Made by a program: the position numbers and the translations under genes. The notes under the pieces were generated by a model. The model was not told where the DNA came from, made no database searches, and saw only the letters and a program-made list of their open reading frames with translations. Shown here piece by piece: positions 32,826 to 43,385 of a DNA stretch of 64,000 nt (positions are counted from its first letter, which is position 1; every line of letters begins with the position of its first letter). The DNA is from Actinomadura spongiicola. Lineage in GTDB: Bacteria; Actinomycetota; Actinomycetes; Streptosporangiales; Streptosporangiaceae. Location: NCBI RefSeq assembly GCF_003432485.1, contig NZ_QVNQ01000005.1:62001-126000 (forward strand). The letters run 5' to 3'.

Positions 32826-32897
32826 TCTCCCCGGCAGGGATCGAACCTGCGCTCCCGGCTCCGGAGGCCGGTGCTCTGTCCGCTGAGCTACGGGGAG
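32826..32897 (-). tRNA. tRNA-Arg, anticodon CCG
   Basis: Minus strand folds as acceptor CTCCCCG/CGGGGAG with discriminator A, D-arm GCTC/GAGC, anticodon stem CCGGC/GCCGG with loop CTCCGGA (anticodon CCG, reads CGG), and T-arm GCAGG-TTCGATC-CCTGC. No CCA is encoded. Confidence 0.96.
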
Positions 32898-34876: not shown

Positions 34877-35764
34877 TCACGGGGCGTGCCCGTGCAGGAC
34901 GCGTGCCACCGCGACCCACTGGTCGGGGTGAACGTGCGCGACGACCGCGCCGCGCGGCACCCCCGCCACGGCGAACGCCGCGTCCACCCTCGCCCGCGGA
35001 TACGCCCGCCGCAGCGACGCGTGCAGGGTGCCGCCCACACCGGTGAACCCCACCTCCACGCACCGGACGTAGGCGTCCATCGCCGTCGGCGGCAGCAGCG
35101 GCCGGTCCCGGCGGTCCAACCGCAGCACCGCCGAGTCCACCCGCGGGACCGGACGGAACCGGTCACGGGGCACGCGCATGCCCATCCGCCAGGAGAACAC
35201 CGGCCACGTCCGCACCGTCACCAGGCTCCACCGCCCATAGTCCCCGGCGCGTTTACGGGCGTACTCCACCTGCGTGACCAGCGTCGCCGACTCAAGACCG
35301 GGCGCGTCCAGCGCCCACGCCACGATCCGGGACGTGGCCGCGTACGGGATGTTGCCCGCCAGGTGAAACGGGCCGCGCGGGGGCCGGGCGCGCAGGAAGT
35401 CACCGGTCACGTACCGGACGTTCGGCAGGTCCCGGCACCGCTCGGCCAGCCGCCGCGCCAGGACCGGGTCGATCTCGTAGGCGATGACGCGCCCGGCCCG
35501 GGCCGCCAACGCGGCGGTGATCCGGCCGTCGCCGGCACCGGCCTCCACGACCAGGTCGCCCGGCCCGTCACCGACGGCGCGGGCGTAGCGGGCGATGACG
35601 GCGGGGTCGGCGAGGAAGTTCTGCGACAGCTCACGGCGCGCACGACCACGCGCGGTGCCGTTCCGGGCGCCGCGGGCCGCGCCCGGGGTGTTGGAAGTGC
35701 CCGAAGTGCTGGGCGTGGCGCGGGCACTGCGGGTGTTGCGGGTGTTGCGGGTGCGTGGGTTCAC
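34877..35764 (-). CDS. 23S rRNA (adenine-N6)-dimethyltransferase, Erm family
   Basis: 295 residues. SAM motif LVVEAGAGDGRITAAL, catalytic motif GNIPYAATSRIVAWAL, ARKRAGDYGRWSLVTV and RPVPRVDSAVLRL. The C-terminal GFTGVGGTLHASLRRAYP and VAHVHPDQWVAVARVL closely follow ErmE-type enzymes. The first ~45 residues (ELSQNFLADP begins the fold) are Arg/Thr/Ser-rich, encoded partly by short repeats. It would methylate A2058 and give macrolide-lincosamide-streptogramin B resistance. A 305-bp leader separates it from a small upstream ORF, so induction by attenuation is plausible. Confidence 0.93.
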   Translation of the reverse strand: MNPRTRNTRNTRSARATPSTSGTSNTPGAARGARNGTARGRARRELSQNFLADPAVIARYARAVGDGPGDLVVEAGAGDGRITAALAARAGRVIAYEIDPVLARRLAERCRDLPNVRYVTGDFLRARPPRGPFHLAGNIPYAATSRIVAWALDAPGLESATLVTQVEYARKRAGDYGRWSLVTVRTWPVFSWRMGMRVPRDRFRPVPRVDSAVLRLDRRDRPLLPPTAMDAYVRCVEVGFTGVGGTLHASLRRAYPRARVDAAFAVAGVPRGAVVAHVHPDQWVAVARVLHGHAP

Positions 35765-36069
35765 GGTGGGTGTCCTCGGATTCCGGCCGTGGACGGCCGG
35801 GCGGGACGGGCCTCACCCGAGGCTCACCGGACAGGCGCGCGGCGTGACCCGGGACCGGGCGGCCCGTCCGAAACGGTCGGGGGACGCTCGGAAGCCCTGG
35901 ACACACCGCGAGTGAAACCGACACCCACGCGGGACACACCGCACGGGGAAGCACCCTGAAACGGGCCACGCCGCGACGCGGCGGCGTCGCCCACGGGCAC
36001 GACACGCGTGCCCGTCGACATCGGCGGACGGCCACGACGACCGTGCACCGCCGGAAAGGGTCAGAAGAG
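35765..36069 (-). promoter_or_regulatory. Leader region between the erm upstream ORF and erm
   Basis: 305 bp with no supported protein gene on either strand. It separates the small upstream ORF from the erm start. Its length and position fit a transcribed leader able to form alternative structures; I could not fold it here. Confidence 0.4.
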
Positions 36070-36180
36070 TCAGGCGCCGAGGCGCACCGGGCGGTCCAGG
36101 ACGGGACGACCCTCACGCAGCCGTACGTACGCGGCCACGAAGACGGTCACCCGGACCGCGCTCTTGGTAAAAGCTGACAT
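36070..36180 (-). CDS. Candidate Erm leader peptide (36 residues)
   Basis: Reads MSAFTKSAVRVTVFVAAYVR, then LREGRPVLDRPVRLGA and TGA. The ATG stands 7 bp after a TACCCT -10, so translation would be leaderless. It contains Arg-Leu-Arg (YVRLREG), the +X+ pattern at which macrolide-bound ribosomes stall in the ErmD leader and other peptides. It could couple macrolide sensing to erm expression. Evidence is sequence only. Confidence 0.5.
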   Translation of the reverse strand: MSAFTKSAVRVTVFVAAYVRLREGRPVLDRPVRLGA

Positions 36181-36187
36181 GACCGAC

Positions 36188-36226
36188 AGGGTAGACGACC
36201 CGCACCGCCGCCCCCACCGGATTTTT
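36188..36226 (-). promoter_or_regulatory. Probable promoter of the erm leader transcript
   Basis: Minus-strand -10 TACCCT (36188-36193). An A-rich hexamer AAAAAT lies at 36221-36226, just upstream of a poor -35 region. AT-tract plus -35 arrangements like this mark WhiB7/WblC-dependent antibiotic-stress promoters; the match here is approximate. Confidence 0.45.
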
Positions 36227-36332
36227 CGTAGTTAAAGCCCGCCCGACTCCCCGTTTAACCCTCTTGACGTGGGCAATCACAAAACCACAACCCCCGGTGA
36301 CCGGAACCCGCCGAGGTCAAGGAGGACCCGTC

Positions 36333-36722
36333 GTGTACCGAACACACGAGATGCGGAAAATCCGGACCGAACAGTCCGGGCGCGAGGAATGGGCCTGTCC
36401 CACCTGCGGCCGACGGATACTCCTGCGCTGGCCTCCGCACTACGAGAAACAGGTCATGGAAACCGGCGACGAACGGGCCTGCCACGTCGGCCGCGCCGCC
36501 GACGACCCGGCCACCGTCCCCCCGGTGACGACCGGGCAACGGCAGGAGACCGGTCGACGGCAGTGGCGCGACGCGCGCCGCTGGCTCCGCGAGACCGGCG
36601 TCTACGACATGCCCGCCCCGCCGCACGGTCCCGCGGCGGCGGCGTCACCGGCCCCGGCGTCGGCCCCAACGTCGACGCCGCCGCCCGCACGGACCCACCT
36701 CGGCCCCACGAAGCCCCTCTGA
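36333..36722 (+). CDS. Small zinc-ribbon-like hypothetical protein
   Basis: 129 residues. After VYRTHEMRKIRTEQSGREEW comes ACPTCGRRILLRWPPHYEK and, 30 residues on, ERACHVG; two Cys of the first pair plus Cys/His of the second could bind zinc. The C-terminal third is Ala/Pro/Ser-rich. GTG at 36333 has AAGGAGG 7 bp upstream. Function unknown. Confidence 0.8.
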   Translation: MYRTHEMRKIRTEQSGREEWACPTCGRRILLRWPPHYEKQVMETGDERACHVGRAADDPATVPPVTTGQRQETGRRQWRDARRWLRETGVYDMPAPPHGPAAAASPAPASAPTSTPPPARTHLGPTKPL

Positions 36723-36821: not shown

Positions 36822-38465
36822 TCAGGAATGAGCCAGTTCGGCGCGCAGCGCGTCCAAACCCATCGGACCCAGATCCAGGGCCCGACGATGGAACCCCTTC
36901 AGATCGAACGCCGCCCCGTCCCGCCGCCGCGCCGCCTCCCGCGCCTCCAACCAGACCTTCTCCCCCAGCTTGTACGCGATCGCCTGCGCCGGACGCCCCA
37001 GATACCGGTCGATCTCGAACGCCGCCTCCGCGTCCGTCCCCGGCCGATGCGCCCGCAGGAACTCCAGCCCCAACTCCGGCGTCCACCGCTCCCCCTCATG
37101 GAAACCGGTCCCCGCCGGGATCTCCAACTCCAGATGCATCCCGATGTCCAGGATCACCCGGGCGGCGCGGAACTGCTGACCACCCGCCAACATCCCCAGC
37201 CGATGCGCCGGATCCCTGTACAGCCCCAACTCGTCCATCAACCGCTCCGCGTACAGGCCCCACCCCTCGCAATGTCCCGGATGCAGCTCACTCGCCACCC
37301 GCTGGTACCGGTTCAACCCCGGGTTCAACGCCGTCACACCCAACTGCAGATGATGACCCGGCGCCCCCTCGTGGAACATCGTCGACGGCACACTCCACGT
37401 CACGATCTCCCCGAACGGGTCGTCCACCGTCCACCACACCGTCCCCGGACGCGACAGGTCCTCCGCCGGCGCCAGATAGTAGATCCCCGACTCCACCGGC
37501 GGGATCCGGCAGTCGATCCGCCGCAACGGCTCCGGAATGTCGAAATGCACCCCGTCCAGGTCCGCGATCGCCCGGTCCGCCAACTCCTGGATCCACCCAC
37601 GGAACGCGTCCGCGCCCTTGAGCCGATGCGCCGGGTCGGCGTCCAACGCCGCCACCACCGCCGGCAGCGGCTCACCCGGCATCACCCGCCCGGCCGCCTC
37701 CGCCATCTCCGCCTTGACCCGCGCCAGCTCCTCCCACCCCCACACGTACGTCTCCCGCAGATCAAGCTCCATGCCCAGAAAATCCCGCACCCCCAGCGTG
37801 TACCGGTCCTCGCCCAGCGCGTCCCGCTCCGGCGCCCGCCACGCCAGCTCACCGGTCAGGAACGCCGCGAACTCCCCCAACGCCGCCGACGCCGACCGCA
37901 CCGCCGCGTCCAAACCGTCCCGCAACGGCCCGTCCCCATACCGGCCCGCCAACTCCACCAGATACGCCGGAGTGTCCAAGCATTCACGAGCGTTCCGCAC
38001 CACCTGCCGCCGCCCCGCCACCCGCCCCCGCTCACACGCCCGCCGCAACGACACCCGCAACCCGCCCAACGCCCCCGGCAACGCCGCCACCCGCGCCCGA
38101 ACCGACTCCCAGTCCGTCGCCGGCCCCTGATCCAACAACTCCACCGCCGTACGAAGCCGCTGAACCGGACCGTCGGTGGTGTCCAGAAAACCCTCCGACA
38201 CCCCCGACTCCGCCACCTCCACCTCGACCTCAAGACGCTCCCGCAACACCGCGGCCGCGACCCGCCCCGCGTCACCCTCCACCGGCGTCCGCGCCAACTC
38301 CCCCAACGTCCGCCGCGCCAGCTCCACCCGCGCCGCCGACCCCTCCGGCCCGTAATCGGTCAACCGCCCGTCCTGACCGGCGATCCCCATGATCGCCGCC
38401 AGGCACGGGTCCACCGCGGCGAACTCGTCCACATACCGGTCTGCGAGGTCATCCAGTGCGTTCAC
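36822..38465 (-). CDS. DUF885 family (putative zinc metallopeptidase)
   Basis: 547 residues. The family signature is present: FHEGAPGHHLQ (HExxxGHH-type metal site), RVASELHPGHCEGWGLYAE and QAIAYKLGEKVWLEARE. The N-terminal half is helical (RYVDEFAAVDPCLAAIMG). No signal peptide, so cytoplasmic. Members are thought to be M32-like carboxypeptidases, but substrates are not known. ATG start; single gene. Confidence 0.9.
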   Translation of the reverse strand: MNALDDLADRYVDEFAAVDPCLAAIMGIAGQDGRLTDYGPEGSAARVELARRTLGELARTPVEGDAGRVAAAVLRERLEVEVEVAESGVSEGFLDTTDGPVQRLRTAVELLDQGPATDWESVRARVAALPGALGGLRVSLRRACERGRVAGRRQVVRNARECLDTPAYLVELAGRYGDGPLRDGLDAAVRSASAALGEFAAFLTGELAWRAPERDALGEDRYTLGVRDFLGMELDLRETYVWGWEELARVKAEMAEAAGRVMPGEPLPAVVAALDADPAHRLKGADAFRGWIQELADRAIADLDGVHFDIPEPLRRIDCRIPPVESGIYYLAPAEDLSRPGTVWWTVDDPFGEIVTWSVPSTMFHEGAPGHHLQLGVTALNPGLNRYQRVASELHPGHCEGWGLYAERLMDELGLYRDPAHRLGMLAGGQQFRAARVILDIGMHLELEIPAGTGFHEGERWTPELGLEFLRAHRPGTDAEAAFEIDRYLGRPAQAIAYKLGEKVWLEAREAARRRDGAAFDLKGFHRRALDLGPMGLDALRAELAHS

Positions 38466-38620
38466 CGCCCCAGGCTAAGGCTCACCCACCCAAAGATCGA
38501 TCATGAAAATGTGCCAAAGCGGCGGACCCCACGACGTGCCTTTCCACGTGCCCTTTCCCGTCCCCGCACACGCCGCCCGCGCACGTGTCCGCGCACATGT
38601 CCTCCGGCAGCGGCGGCTCC

Positions 38621-39280
38621 CTACCGTGTCTCGGCCGCCAACCGCACACCCAGAGCCACCAGGACCACCCCCGACAACTGATCCAACCGCCGCCGCACCC
38701 CCGGACGGCCCAGCACCCGCCGAGCCGCACCCACCACCCACACCACCACCGCGTACCAGACCAGATCGATCAACGCCCACAGCACCGACAACCCCACCAG
38801 CGCCACCGGAACCGACCACCCCTCCGGCACGAACTGCGGAAGGAACGACACCGCGAACACCCCCGCCTTCGGATTGGCGAAATTCGTCACCAGCCCCAAC
38901 CGGTAAGACCCCCACCACGACCGTCCACCACCCCGCCGCCCAGCATCCGACGGGACACCGCTCCCGTCCCCGATGTCCGCCGAAGCAGCGCCGCCGCGGC
39001 GCGCATGCCACAACGCCCGCACCCCGAACCACACCAGCACAACCGCACCCACCACCCGCAACCCGTCATACGCCACCCGCGACGCCGCCAGCAACGCCGA
39101 CAACCCCACCGCCGCCGCCACACCCCACGCCAGAACCCCGGTCTCGTTCCCCAGCACCGCCGCCACACCCCCGCGCCGCCCCGACCGCATCGACTCCCGC
39201 ATGATCACGACCGTGCTCGGCCCCGGCGCCATCGCGATCAACACCGCCGCACCCACAAAAGCGACCAAAGTCTCCAGCAT
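38621..39280 (-). CDS. LysE/RhtB family amino-acid exporter
   Basis: 219 residues with about six helices and the family start LETLVAFVGAAVLIAMAPGPSTVVIMRES; GNETGVLAWGVAAA and LVTNFANPKAGVFAVSFLPQF are diagnostic. A Gly/Ser/Arg-rich loop lies mid-protein. ATG at 39280 is used; a GTG directly before it is also possible. Substrate not predictable. Confidence 0.92.
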   Translation of the reverse strand: MLETLVAFVGAAVLIAMAPGPSTVVIMRESMRSGRRGGVAAVLGNETGVLAWGVAAAVGLSALLAASRVAYDGLRVVGAVVLVWFGVRALWHARRGGAASADIGDGSGVPSDAGRRGGGRSWWGSYRLGLVTNFANPKAGVFAVSFLPQFVPEGWSVPVALVGLSVLWALIDLVWYAVVVWVVGAARRVLGRPGVRRRLDQLSGVVLVALGVRLAAETR

Positions 39281-39353
39281 CACCCCATGCTGGCCGCTTC
39301 ACCACCGCCCCGGCAAACCCCTTTCCCCCCGCACGAAACGTCTCAGACAACCG

Positions 39354-40133
39354 TCACAGCGGCCCGCCGTCACCCGGCGGGACACTCGGCGGCGTCGACG
39401 GCGGCCGCGACGGAGACGGGGACGGCAACGGACGCGGCGACCCCGGCGGCCGCGACGGAGACGGAAACGACGGCGTCGGCTCCGGCGGCGGAGGCGGCGG
39501 CGCCTTCACCTCAGGCTGACACGCGAACAACACCCCCATCAGCAACGCCACCACCACCAACAACGCCACCAACGTCAACACAACGCTCACCGCACTCCGC
39601 CGCGGCGCCACCTCCGACACCGGCCCCGCACCCACCGGAGGCCCCGGCCGCGGAACCGGACCCTCCAACGCCGGCTCCGCCGACCCCGACCAATACGGCT
39701 GGAACTGCGGCCCACGCCTCCGCCCCAACCACCGACCACCCCAACCCGAACCCCCCGGCCCCTGGAACTCCACCGGCTCCAAGAACCGCTCCGCCCCCAC
39801 CCGATCCGCCTCGTACGACGTCGCCACCCACGGCGCCGACCCCTCCGGCTGCGCCGCCACCACCGGCGCCACACCACCCGACCCCCCACCGGCCGAACCC
39901 CCCTCACCAGACCGCCCACCAGGACCCGGCACCGCCGCGTTGATCGCCGCACGAAAACGATCCCGCGCCGCCGCGTCCTCAGCCGCACCACGGTTCAACA
40001 CCGCCACACTCGCCCGACGCCCCTCGTCGTCCACCCCCAGGAACACGATCCCAGCCGCGGACTCCGACAAACGCGCCGACAAACGAAACGGCCCCAGCCG
40101 AACAGGATCACCCGGGGGCAACGGCCTCGACAT
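39354..40133 (-). CDS. Membrane protein with a protein-kinase N-lobe-like domain and Pro-rich outer tail
   Basis: 259 residues. The start (PLPPGDPVRLGPFRLSARLS, then ESAAGIVFLGVDDEGRRASVAVLN) follows the order of an actinobacterial Ser/Thr kinase N-lobe (glycine-loop and beta-3 strand), but the beta-3 lysine is missing and no C-lobe is present. A disordered Gly/Arg/Pro stretch follows, then one helix (AVSVVLTLVALLVVVALLMGV) and an outside tail of PPPPPPEPTP and SPSRPP repeats. Divergent from the MoxR operon across 218 bp. Not a functional kinase; an interaction domain is likely. Confidence 0.75.
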   Translation of the reverse strand: MSRPLPPGDPVRLGPFRLSARLSESAAGIVFLGVDDEGRRASVAVLNRGAAEDAAARDRFRAAINAAVPGPGGRSGEGGSAGGGSGGVAPVVAAQPEGSAPWVATSYEADRVGAERFLEPVEFQGPGGSGWGGRWLGRRRGPQFQPYWSGSAEPALEGPVPRPGPPVGAGPVSEVAPRRSAVSVVLTLVALLVVVALLMGVLFACQPEVKAPPPPPPEPTPSFPSPSRPPGSPRPLPSPSPSRPPSTPPSVPPGDGGPL

Positions 40134-40351
40134 GGCCGCAACCCTAACAACCCCCCACCCCCACCGACTCCCCCACCGGCGACCCCGCCGACCCCCACCC
40201 CCCACCCCCACCTGCACCGAACCGCACCAACCCCCACCTCCCCCAACCACCCCGAACCGATCACCACCACCACGCACGTATCCCCAGCGAACGGGTACAA
40301 GCGATCGCGTAGGGTCAAAAGGCGCCCGAGCCCGGCACCCAAGGGACGACA

Positions 40352-41383
40352 ATGATAGCACCCCATATGACCATCGCCGCCACCGACGTCGACGAAGCCG
40401 CGGCCCTCCTGCAAACCACCCTCGCCGAAGTCAAAAAAGTCATCGTCGGCCAGGACCACATGGTCGAACGCATGATCGTCGCACTTCTCGCCCGCGGACA
40501 CTGCCTCGTCGAAGGCGTCCCCGGCGTCGCCAAGACCCTCGCCGTCGACACCCTCGCCCACGTCGTCGGCGGCACCTTCGCCCGCCTCCAGTTCACCCCC
40601 GACCTCGTCCCCTCCGACATCGTCGGCACCCGCATCTACCACCCCTCCACCGAACAGTTCGACGTCGAACTCGGCCCCGTCTTCGTCAACTTCGTCCTCG
40701 CCGACGAAATCAACCGCGCCCCCGCCAAAGTCCAATCCGCACTACTGGAAGTCATGGCCGAACGCCAGGTCTCCCTCGGCGGCAACACCTACCCCCTCCC
40801 CACCCCCTTCATCGTCCTCGCCACCCAGAACCCCATCGAATCCGAAGGCGTCTACCCCCTCCCCGAAGCGCAACGCGACCGCTTCCTCATGAAAATCGAC
40901 GTCCACCACCCCGCCGCCCACGAAGAACTCCAAATCCTCCAACGCATGAGCGTCGACCCACCCGAAGCCACCCAGATCCTCGACACCCACCGCCTCGCCG
41001 GACTCCAACGCGCCGCCGAAGAAGTCGCCGTCCACGAACTCATCGCCGACTACATCGTCCGCCTCGTCATGGCCACCCGCGAACCCGACCAGTACCGCCT
41101 CCCCGACCTCCGCGGCGTCATCGAGATCGGCGCCAGCCCCCGCGCCACCCTCGGCCTCGCCGCCACCGCCCGCGCCCTCGCCCTCCTGTCCGGACGCGAC
41201 TACGTCCTCCCCGACGACGTCCGCGCCGTCGCCCGCGACGTCATCGCCCACCGCCTCGTCCTCACCTTCGACGCCCTCGCCGACGGCATCGACGCCACCG
41301 ACGTCACCAACCAGATCCTCGCCGCCGTCCCCCCACCCCGCGTCGTGTGGAACCACGGAGCGGCGGCGGTGACCACCGCATGA
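40352..41383 (+). CDS. MoxR-type AAA+ ATPase
   Basis: 343 residues. Walker A is the MoxR form EGVPGVAKTLAVDTLA, Walker B FVLADEINRAPAKVQSALLE, sensor 1 FIVLATQNPIESEGVYPLPEAQRDRFLMKI, and the C-terminal lid carries a GASPRATLGL motif. ATG at 40352 has AAGGGA upstream; a second ATG at 40367 is possible. Starts an operon with DUF58 and VWA genes through 4-bp overlaps. This trio is usual for MoxR chaperone systems that mature or remodel partner proteins at the membrane. Confidence 0.96.
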   Translation: MIAPHMTIAATDVDEAAALLQTTLAEVKKVIVGQDHMVERMIVALLARGHCLVEGVPGVAKTLAVDTLAHVVGGTFARLQFTPDLVPSDIVGTRIYHPSTEQFDVELGPVFVNFVLADEINRAPAKVQSALLEVMAERQVSLGGNTYPLPTPFIVLATQNPIESEGVYPLPEAQRDRFLMKIDVHHPAAHEELQILQRMSVDPPEATQILDTHRLAGLQRAAEEVAVHELIADYIVRLVMATREPDQYRLPDLRGVIEIGASPRATLGLAATARALALLSGRDYVLPDDVRAVARDVIAHRLVLTFDALADGIDATDVTNQILAAVPPPRVVWNHGAAAVTTA

Positions 41384-42441
41384 CCACCCGACGGCACGGC
41401 ACCGGACGGCACAGCACCGGACGGCACGGCGGCAAACTCGCCCACCTCGCCCCCGAACGCACCCTGCGCCGCCTCGAACTCCAGGTCACCCGCCGCCTCG
41501 ACGGCCTCCTCGGCGGCGAACACCTCGGCCTGCTCCCCGGCCCCGGCACCGAACTCGCCGAAGCCCGCCTCTACCAACCCGGCGAGGACGACGTCCGCCA
41601 CATGGACTGGGCCGTCACCGCCCGCACCACCACCCCCCACGTCCGCGACCTCATCGCCGACCACGAACTCGAAGCCTGGGCCCTCCTCGACCTCACCCCC
41701 AGCATGGACTTCGGCACCGCCACCATGACCAAACGCGACCTCGCCGTCGCCGCCCTCGCCGCCGTCGGATTCCTCACCGTCCGCCTCGGCGACCGCGCCG
41801 GCGCCTACCTCCTCCACACCGACGGCACGCGCCGCTGGCCCGCCCGCACCGGCAAAGCCGCCCTCTACGCCCTCCTCCACGCCGCCCTGGACTCCCAATC
41901 CGCCGACGACGGCACCCCCCGCACCCCCACCCGCCGCCCCGCACCGTCCCCCGACCTCGCCACCGCCATCAGCTCCCTCGACCGCGGCCAGACCCGACGC
42001 GGCCTCCGCGTCGTCATCTCCGACTTCCTCGCCCCCGACGGCACCGGCCCCATCCCCACCGGAACCCCCACCGGCCACGACCACCCCGCCCGACCCGACT
42101 GGGAACGCCCCCTCCGCCGCCTCACCGCCCGCCACCAGGTCCTCGCCATCGAGATCGTCGACCCCCGCGAACTCGACCTCCCCGACGTCGGACTCGTCGA
42201 GATGACCGACCCCGAAACCGGAACCGTCCACGAGATCGTCCTCAACCGCCGCGTCCGCGAACGGTACGCCGCCGCCGCCACCGCGCAACGCGACCACATC
42301 CGCGCCGCCCTACGCCGCGCCGGCACCCACCACCTCGTCCTGCGCACCGACCGCGACTGGATCGCCGACATCGCACGCTTCGCCCTCCGCCAACGCCGCG
42401 CCGCGGGCCGGCACGCCACCACCGCGGGAGCGCGCCCATGA
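41380..42441 (+). CDS. DUF58 domain protein
   Basis: 353 residues. YQPGEDDVRHMDWAVTARTTTPHVRDL is the DUF58 signature, followed by a VWA-like half (EAWALLDLTPSMDFGTATMTKRD with a DxTxSM MIDAS-type motif, later VVISDFLAPDGTG). The His/Arg-rich N-terminal 18 residues are encoded by a short repeat. No membrane helix. Translationally coupled to moxR (ATGA) and to the VWA gene. Confidence 0.92.
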   Translation: MTTRRHGTGRHSTGRHGGKLAHLAPERTLRRLELQVTRRLDGLLGGEHLGLLPGPGTELAEARLYQPGEDDVRHMDWAVTARTTTPHVRDLIADHELEAWALLDLTPSMDFGTATMTKRDLAVAALAAVGFLTVRLGDRAGAYLLHTDGTRRWPARTGKAALYALLHAALDSQSADDGTPRTPTRRPAPSPDLATAISSLDRGQTRRGLRVVISDFLAPDGTGPIPTGTPTGHDHPARPDWERPLRRLTARHQVLAIEIVDPRELDLPDVGLVEMTDPETGTVHEIVLNRRVRERYAAAATAQRDHIRAALRRAGTHHLVLRTDRDWIADIARFALRQRRAAGRHATTAGARP

Positions 42442-43385
42442 CCTTCCTGTCACCCGAACGCCTCTGGCTCCTCGGCGTACTGCCCCTCCTCGCCGCCCTC
42501 TACGTCCTGCTCCAACTACGCCGCGGCCGGCACGCCGTCCGCTTCACCAACCTCGCCCTGCTCTCCCAGGTCGCCCCCCGCCGCCCCGGCTGGCGCCGCC
42601 ACCTCGCCGCCGCCCTCTTCCTCGTCATGATGACCCTCATGATGATCGGATTCGCGCGCCCCGCCGACTCCGTCAAGGTCCCCCGCGACCGCGCCACCAT
42701 CCTCGTCGCCATCGACGTCTCCCTGTCGATGATGGCCAGAGACGTCCCACCCAGCCGCTTCGACGCCGCCAAGGCCGCCGCCAAGAAGTTCATCGACGAC
42801 CTTCCCGCCCGCTTCAACGTCGGCGTCGTCGCCTTCGCCGGCAGCGCCAACCTCATCGCCGCGCCCTCCACCGACCGCGCCACCGCCATCGCCTCCATCG
42901 ACCAGCTCGTCATGGCCAAACGCACCGCCATCGGCGAAGCCGTCTTCACCGGCCTCCAAGCCGTCCGATCCTTCGACGCCGAAGCCTCCCAGGACCCGCC
43001 ACCCGCCCACATCGTCCTGCTGTCCGACGGCGACAACACCACCGGACGCTCCGTCCAGGAGGCCATCGACGCCAGCCGCGCCGCCCACGTCCCGGTCTCC
43101 ACCATCGCGTTCGGCACCCCCTACGGCACCGTCGACATCGAAGGCGAGACCACCAGCGTCTCGGTCAACAAGGAGACCCTGCGCAGCCTCGCCGAGAGCA
43201 CCGAGGGCAAGGCCTACGAGGCCGCCGACTCCGACGAGCTCCGCGACGTCTACGGCAACATCGGCACCAGCCTCGGCTTCAAGATCGAGCACCGCGACGT
43301 CGCCGCCCGCTACACCGGCGTCGCGCTGCTGTTCGCGCTCGCCGCCGCCGGCGCCTCCCTGGCCTGGTTCTCCCGCCTGCCCTGA
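42438..43385 (+). CDS. VWA domain membrane protein
   Basis: 315 residues. Two N-terminal helices (LWLLGVLPLLAALYVLLQL and HLAAALFLVMMTLMMIGFA), a von Willebrand A domain (about 85-285) with MIDAS motif VAIDVSLSMMARDV, Thr in the AIGEAVFTGL loop and LLSDGDNTTG, and a C-terminal helix. BatA-like. Third gene of the MoxR operon; the VWA domain is the likely client or scaffold outside or at the membrane. Confidence 0.93.
   Translation: MTFLSPERLWLLGVLPLLAALYVLLQLRRGRHAVRFTNLALLSQVAPRRPGWRRHLAAALFLVMMTLMMIGFARPADSVKVPRDRATILVAIDVSLSMMARDVPPSRFDAAKAAAKKFIDDLPARFNVGVVAFAGSANLIAAPSTDRATAIASIDQLVMAKRTAIGEAVFTGLQAVRSFDAEASQDPPPAHIVLLSDGDNTTGRSVQEAIDASRAAHVPVSTIAFGTPYGTVDIEGETTSVSVNKETLRSLAESTEGKAYEAADSDELRDVYGNIGTSLGFKIEHRDVAARYTGVALLFALAAAGASLAWFSRLP

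Follow-up and report, generated by a model that had tools for sequence, protein, structure and literature searches.

A leaderless Arg-x-Arg upstream ORF before ErmE-like genes of Actinomycetota and a proposed two-input attenuation of erm

The erm gene of Actinomadura spongiicola described here, which lies in a window of 64,000 nt (positions 62001-126000 of its contig), is preceded by a short upstream ORF (uORF) that encodes an Arg-Leu-Arg motif, and leaderless uORFs with an Arg-x-Arg (R-x-R) motif recur before related erm genes in other genera. The best reading of these comparisons is that erm is probably controlled by WblC-driven, macrolide-stalled attenuation that takes two inputs. An inducible circuit with two inputs had been the original prediction for this locus, and both of its arms are backed by comparison with homologous loci, although the folding calculations gave no confirmation that the erm start site is released.

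The erm locus and its upstream ORF

The erm gene occupies 34877-35764 on the minus strand and encodes a product of 295 aa from a GTG start. The product scored 349.9 bits against NCBIfam NF000337 (curated cut-off 320), which places it in the ErmE/H/O/R group of 23S rRNA A2058 methyltransferases. It was also matched by Pfam PF00398, and the closest named Erm in the search of named loci, from Actinomadura pelletieri, is 89% identical. A Shine-Dalgarno-like GAGGA lies at 35773-35777 (minus strand), and the gap between the uORF and erm spans 35765-36069, so the 305-nt leader and the ErmE-like methylase of the original prediction are both in place. The predicted 36-codon ORF with YVRLREG was likewise found, on the minus strand at 36180-36070; it reads MSAFTKSAVRVTVFVAAYVRLREGRPVLDRPVRLGA from an ATG that lies 7 nt after the -10 hexamer TACCCT (36188-36193, minus strand), a distance that suggests a leaderless start. 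Arg20, Leu21 and Arg22 are encoded at 36115-36123 (minus strand), which by sequence criterion makes the uORF an RLR (+X+) erm leader peptide, and these codons are the presumed macrolide stall site in view of the parallel with ErmDL (excerpts of PMC8298421).

Self-resistance within a macrolide cluster was rejected as an explanation of the gene, since no ketosynthase lies within the window and the nearest one on the contig starts at 509061. A divergent ORF of at most 152 aa (36264-36722, plus strand) with a zinc-ribbon-like CPTC...CH stretch begins near the erm promoter on the opposite strand, and had no match in the Pfam or NCBIfam searches. A tRNA gene at 32826-32897 (minus strand; Rfam RF00005, 65.2 bits) adjoins an aldehyde dehydrogenase gene. 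Cumulative GC skew peaks near 32-33 kb of the window, and GC skew is strongly negative at 37000-43000 (about -0.31 to -0.40 per kb).

Conservation of the uORF was assessed in 150 loci, made up of 70 (L002-L071) from 150 genomes of the same family and 80 named loci. The pattern used was a TANNNT -10 element, a gap of 5-10 nt, [AG]TG and an ORF of 6-60 codons containing R[LIPMVF]R, at most 600 nt upstream of an ErmE-like gene. It was present in 131 of the 150 loci compared to one of the 150 reverse complements, and 20 rounds of dinucleotide shuffling gave a mean of 1.6 per 150 (range 0-5). When loci sharing a 60-mer were removed, with named loci preferred, 105 non-redundant loci were left; the window locus (L002) was lost at this step as a near-copy of a retained locus and was restored for the RNA tests. 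A leaderless uORF with Arg-[LIPMVF]-Arg was present in 91 of these 105. Any Arg-x-Arg in such a uORF was found in 98 compared to 1/105 in the opposite-strand control, so these uORFs precede erm more often than chance would allow; the scan pattern found no R-x-R uORF in seven of the 105.

Among the 91 uORFs, the chosen motif was RPR in 37, RLR in 24, RIR in 17, RVR in 6, RMR in 4 and RFR in 3, with a hydrophobic or Pro middle residue. The codon of the first Arg was CGC (32), CGT (27), CGG (26), AGG (4) or CGA (2), and this variation indicates that the amino acid is conserved and not the DNA alone. The start codon was ATG in 85 cases and GTG in 6. Named genera with ErmE-like loci include Actinomadura, Thermomonospora, Nonomuraea, Herbidospora, Streptosporangium, Planobispora, Nocardiopsis, Streptomonospora, Micromonospora, Salinispora, Nocardia and Streptomyces, which we take to span several families. 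The uORF peptides of different genera can be aligned by eye; examples are MSCMFSCQVFIRIRHSRALAR (L108), MSVTCPAPLFFVRLRRGPVLGR (L099) and the stretches LLVSRPRVRRPALV (L114) and SVRVRRGPGALTG (L142). A RALAR-type uORF pattern had five matches in 61 genomes, all five just upstream of an Erm gene, and by these sequence scans the uORF motif is erm-specific. In two Phytohabitans loci the uORF has decayed (RPW in place of RPR in L122, an 11-codon remnant in L126) and erm is kept.

A wider sample of 296 genomes drawn across the phylum contained 12 with an Erm above the NF000499 cut-off, and 9 of these 12 loci, the window included, had a uORF with leaderless spacing (5-10 nt) and [RK]x[RK]. Such a uORF was found in none of five weaker Erm-like matches (L164-L168) and in one (L172) of 13 lower-scoring RsmA-like matches (L169-L181); the upstream sequence was short for several of these 18.

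Promoter sequence and the WblC/WhiB7 regulon

The WblC promoter consensus is GAAAWY-N3-TKGMNN-N16-19-TANNNT, with start sites 7-8 nt beyond it (excerpts of PMC7157823). Upstream of the window uORF, on the minus strand, an AT tract GAAAAATC at 36227-36220 includes a WblC/WhiB7-like box AAAATC (36220-36225; 5/6 against GAAAWY of that consensus), followed after 3 nt by a -35-like TGGGGG (36211-36216; 3/4 against TKGM) that lies 17 nt before the -10 element. With 8 of 10 consensus positions, a spacer of 17 and 7 nt to the ATG, the window promoter is an imperfect match and is among the poorer ones of the set. At the 91 chosen uORF promoters, at least 8 of 10 positions agreed in 78 and at least 9 of 10 in 62, whereas for 47 TANNNT sites elsewhere in these regions the numbers were 1 and 0. 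The suggestion that the AT tract recalls WhiB7/WblC control is therefore upheld for the homologous loci as a group, the window itself reaching only 8/10. The distance from the -10 element to the start codon was exactly 7 nt in 65 of the 91 uORFs, which agrees with the WblC start-site distance (excerpts of PMC7157823) and points to leaderless initiation. By consensus, the erm uORF promoter is putatively of the WblC/WhiB7-regulon type.

When the 7.7-Mb host genome was searched with AAAWY-N3-TKG-N18-21-TANNNT-N6-8-RTG, four sites were found, the promoter of the erm uORF included, and the reversed pattern gave none. The other three leaderless WblC-like promoters directly start a GNAT-like protein (L190, contig C5:146563-146610), an ABC ATPase and a membrane protein, as named by eye. 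The host genome has seven WhiB-domain matches, and one protein (L189) combines a Whib domain with an RPRGRPRK tail, which we take to mark WhiB7, and is WhiB7-like.

Leader RNA helices and the erm start site

Reading of the leaders suggested that the codons right after R-x-R are complementary to a segment of the leader. In the window (coordinates of this section are on the minus strand), element 1 (GTCCTGGAC, 36094-36102) in the uORF tail can form nine pairs, one of them G-U, with element 2 (GTCCAGGGC, 35894-35902). A conserved hairpin TTCCGAG...TTTCGGACGGGCC (35861-35893) follows element 2 and offers an alternative 2:3 pairing; element 3 (GGACGGGCC) is at 35861-35869, and element 4 (GGCCCGTCC, 35804-35812) is its perfect 9-bp complement. 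With Leu21 placed in the P site as in ErmDL (excerpts of PMC8298421) and the footprint assumed to run from -14 to +16, a stalled ribosome would reach as far as transcript nt 76 (0-based), and the first position of element 1 is nt 78, 1 nt past the assumed 3' edge of the ribosome.

In a swap test of the 1:2 pairing, the own leader beat the mean of the leaders of different-tail loci in 62 of 81 loci (Wilcoxon p 1.6e-9, uncorrected for relatedness); it beat at least 90% of the others in 24 and all of them in 10, the loci not being independent. In a permutation test, element 2 was anchored only via the neighbouring conserved hairpin, so that 56 of 88 loci were usable and the 32 without an anchor were omitted. 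The 34 distinct combinations averaged 8.74 of 11 pairs, which none of 5000 permutations reached (permuted mean 8.39, maximum 8.71); conservation of both sides keeps the absolute difference small. RNAalifold recovered the 1:2 helix unguided in 28 short leaders. Compensatory forms of the helix include GGGCUCUGG:CCAGGGCCC, GCCCUGACCGG:CCGGUCAGGGC in Streptomyces, CCUCAGGCCCGC:GCGGGCCUGAGG in L006 and GCCGGACCGG:CCGGUCCGGC in L057. The window form is GUCCUGGAC:GUCCAGGGC, while the top window helix of the swap test was a different one, longer and mismatched. Some clades have mismatches (a central C:C or U:C in the Planobispora/Planomonospora type). In 28 of 36 longer leaders the 3:4 helix is perfectly Watson-Crick for a minimum of 7 bp, with the compensatory forms GGACGGGC:GCCCGUCC, GGACAGGC:GCCUGUCC and GGCGGGCC:GGCCCGCC. 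Alternative leader helices 1:2 and 3:4 are thus backed by covariation across the sequences compared.

Two other signals were set aside. Segment 0 (GCGGTCCGGG, 36150-36159) within the uORF complements the tail at 36100-36091 (CCTGGACCGC), and in the window the 0:1 pairing GCGGUCCGGG:CCUGGACCGC would give a hairpin with the stalled ribosome in its loop. As a general feature this helix was rejected, with 14 of 74 loci at a shuffle p of 0.05 or below, mainly from the Actinomadura clade, and a swap test p of 0.13. A search for long gapped duplexes was uninformative in such GC-rich sequence (median z -1.4; 20 of 84 loci unmatched by 40 shuffles; 37 of 40 shuffles equal or better for the window), and ungapped and anchored tests were used instead. 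No Rfam family scored above its gathering score in the window leader or in 15 loci. Four loci with an ambiguous choice of uORF (L033, L037, L045 and L024) were excluded from the hairpin, swap, permutation, footprint-folding and 0:1 tests. The gapped duplex search also omitted L106 and L124, and leaders that were too short were omitted there and in the 1:2 swap test.

The mechanism that we propose for erm runs as follows. Ribosome stress would raise WblC/WhiB7, which would activate a sigma-A-type promoter, and the transcript would start on the uORF ATG or directly beside it, placing the leaderless sensing ORF first on every erm mRNA. A ribosome bound by a macrolide or ketolide would then stall on R-L-R, its P site holding Leu21 and its A site Arg22, and halt just before element 1, and the covariation-backed 1:2 helix could form. 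This would free element 3 for element 4, and element 4 and its neighbours would be kept from sequestering the erm start site. When the drug is absent, ribosomes would traverse element 1 (or element 1 would fold onto segment 0), 2:3 would form and the start site would be closed. In Streptosporangium-type genera, whose leaders are short, the start region seems to be sequestered by element 2 itself. The sensor would then be turned off by methylation of A2058. Stalling, induction, the order of these events and control at translation as opposed to transcription are what we infer from sequence comparison.

One caveat is that opening of the erm start site is the least certain step, and folding stands against the simple version of it, though the models ignore co-transcriptional folding. 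Folding of the leader had been put forward as a check on the original prediction; equilibrium folding with ribosome footprints showed no significant opening of the start site. In partition-function folding with the ribosome footprint at RxR compared to the stop codon, accessibility of the start site went up in 26 and down in 21 of 67 loci (p = 0.14); six loci where no start was found were omitted, as were others with a weak Shine-Dalgarno sequence or unsuitable length. In the window, forcing both 1:2 and 3:4 lowered accessibility of the Shine-Dalgarno sequence (0.01 compared to 0.25), and forcing 3:4 alone raised it to 0.40 but kept the start codon closed; element 1 stays uncovered when a ribosome is at the uORF stop. 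Of 32 loci with element 4, 12 had no assignable ribosome-binding site; in 10 of the remaining 20, element 4 pairs with that site over at least 6 bp. The pairing changes from CCGUCC:GGACGG to CCUGUC:GACAGG together with element 3, but it is suggestive only, because the mean shuffle p over the 20 loci was 0.32. In the window it comes to just 4 bp (shuffle p 0.29). In an alignment of the 28 short leaders (A2), columns 16-22, which hold the R-x-R codons, are predicted to pair with columns 161-167, which hold the erm start GUGGCG. If this pairing is true, a ribosome on R-x-R could directly unmask the erm start codon, though the columns hardly vary and for that reason it does not count as evidence.

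These null results bear on the main rival explanation, transcriptional attenuation, which we consider unlikely but well ahead of the other alternatives. The sensor would be the same, and stalling at R-x-R would prevent a terminator or Rho-dependent termination within the 305-nt leader, in the style of whiB7/wblC, whose leaders have a uORF plus a terminator (excerpts of PMC10727445). The leader is long and structured (z -2.92), the 3:4 helix could serve as an antiterminator, and the release of the binding site that translational control calls for is unsupported by equilibrium folding. However, no hairpin with a T run was found between the uORF and erm by a consensus scan, which is blind to Rho-dependent or T-poor termination. 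The sole terminator-like site in 35600-36400 lies upstream of the uORF, at 36306-36292, and shuffles average 0.7 such sites. In addition, the conserved hairpins of the short leaders reach the erm GTG, and half of the testable long leaders have an element 4 that matches the binding site. Translational control is preferred here because the scan of the leader turned up no intrinsic terminator.

In a further alternative, ribosomes would translate the uORF and WblC would drive the promoter, but no switching would take place in the leader RNA, so that the drug response would be transcriptional only and the tail would be kept for, e.g., mRNA stability. The promoter evidence does exceed the evidence for a switch, and the folding tests of start-site release were null, yet on this account one would expect neither that 1:2 and 3:4 vary in compensatory fashion between genera nor that R-x-R persists despite changing codons, and we regard it as quite improbable. 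A chance origin of the uORF in GC-rich DNA, where Arg is common, can hardly be credited: Arg makes up 12% of uORF residues outside the motif and single R-x-R matches are cheap, but the reverse complements and shuffles fell far below the 131 of 150 loci and the peptides of different genera align. Two-input attenuation with a translational switch remains the preferred reading.

Comparison with known systems

The component parts of the proposed system are known, and what looks new is the conserved leaderless combination with an RNA switch. Work on the ermSF, ermSV and pikR leaders, and that of Ramu 2009 on leader classes, could hold part of this combination. Full-text searches of literature that includes few subscription journals brought up no description of leaderless R-x-R uORFs conserved before ErmE-type genes of actinobacteria, or of the RNA switch that goes with them. 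Upstream ORFs of the +X+ class before macrolide-resistance genes are known (excerpts of PMC8298421 and PMC6238534), and the uORFs that attenuate ARE5 ABCF genes in Streptomyces respond to other drugs but fail to respond to erythromycin (excerpts of PMC12421871).

If the proposed mechanism is true, a two-input leaderless sensor would explain why chromosomal erm genes are silent until a macrolide arrives, and dozens of natural Arg-x-Arg arrest peptides, Arg-Pro-Arg included, would be at hand for stalling studies. Inducible macrolide resistance in Actinomycetota may also be under-annotated, as gene callers miss uORFs of such small size. Clinical erm genes presumably come from Actinobacteria, and the descent of mobile erm leaders from chromosomal ones would become directly testable. 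A broader proposal, which is possible but which we hold as tentative, is that a single ancestral sensor serves erm across Actinomycetota. It would be a leaderless Arg-x-Arg uORF (often Arg-Pro-Arg) with leaderless initiation as part of the mechanism, because every transcript then begins with a sensing ribosome. In many genera it would be joined to WblC as an AND gate and followed by a cascading, undescribed 1:2/3:4 switch, and plasmid erm(X), erm(36) and erm(51), having lost the WblC box, would still carry traces of the same geometry.

The plasmid genes erm(X), erm(36) and erm(51) of Corynebacterium and Micrococcus resemble the window in having an RxR uORF (MLISGTAFLRLRSNR, MGSPSIAVTRFRRF and MGVMNAIFTTFGRLRSSGAAGGCVR, respectively) 7 nt after a -10-like hexamer. 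They differ in that the WblC promoter arm is missing or different (WblC-box scores of 4-6 of 10), and their Erm proteins are 34-39% identical to that of the window over only half of the protein. The three loci (L195, L194 and L197, respectively) look as if the sensor was retained and the promoter arm lost. A scan of the region upstream of Erm(46) found no comparable uORF. For erm(X), a leader peptide with suspected translational attenuation has been published (excerpts of PMC3350403).

Among other systems, ErmDL-ermD of Bacillus likewise has a short Arg-Leu-Arg uORF before erm, with RLR at codons 6-8 as opposed to 20-22 in the window (excerpts of PMC8298421). The same excerpts place Leu in the P site of the drug-bound, stalled ribosome and report that erythromycin stalling depends little on RLR, which counts against the proposed mechanism. 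The window system, unlike ErmDL-ermD, has a leaderless start, a WblC-type promoter and a long GC-rich leader, and belongs to Actinomycetota. In the ermC attenuator, leader RNA likewise masks the erm start or makes it accessible once a ribosome has stalled on a uORF (excerpts of PMC10219788), but the peptide class is another one, the RNA is unrelated, and in the window element 1 is located past the ribosome that would stall. Two further erm genes, SCO6089 (Erm(O) type) and erm41, are activated by WblC/WhiB7, and excerpts of PMC7157823 and PMC10727445 mention no sensing uORF for them. The whiB7/wblC leader, also in Actinomycetota, has a uORF that is read under antibiotic stress and controls a resistance regulator; it differs from the window system in using transcription attenuation with a terminator, in having the regulator and not erm as its target, and in its broad drug response (excerpts of PMC10727445).
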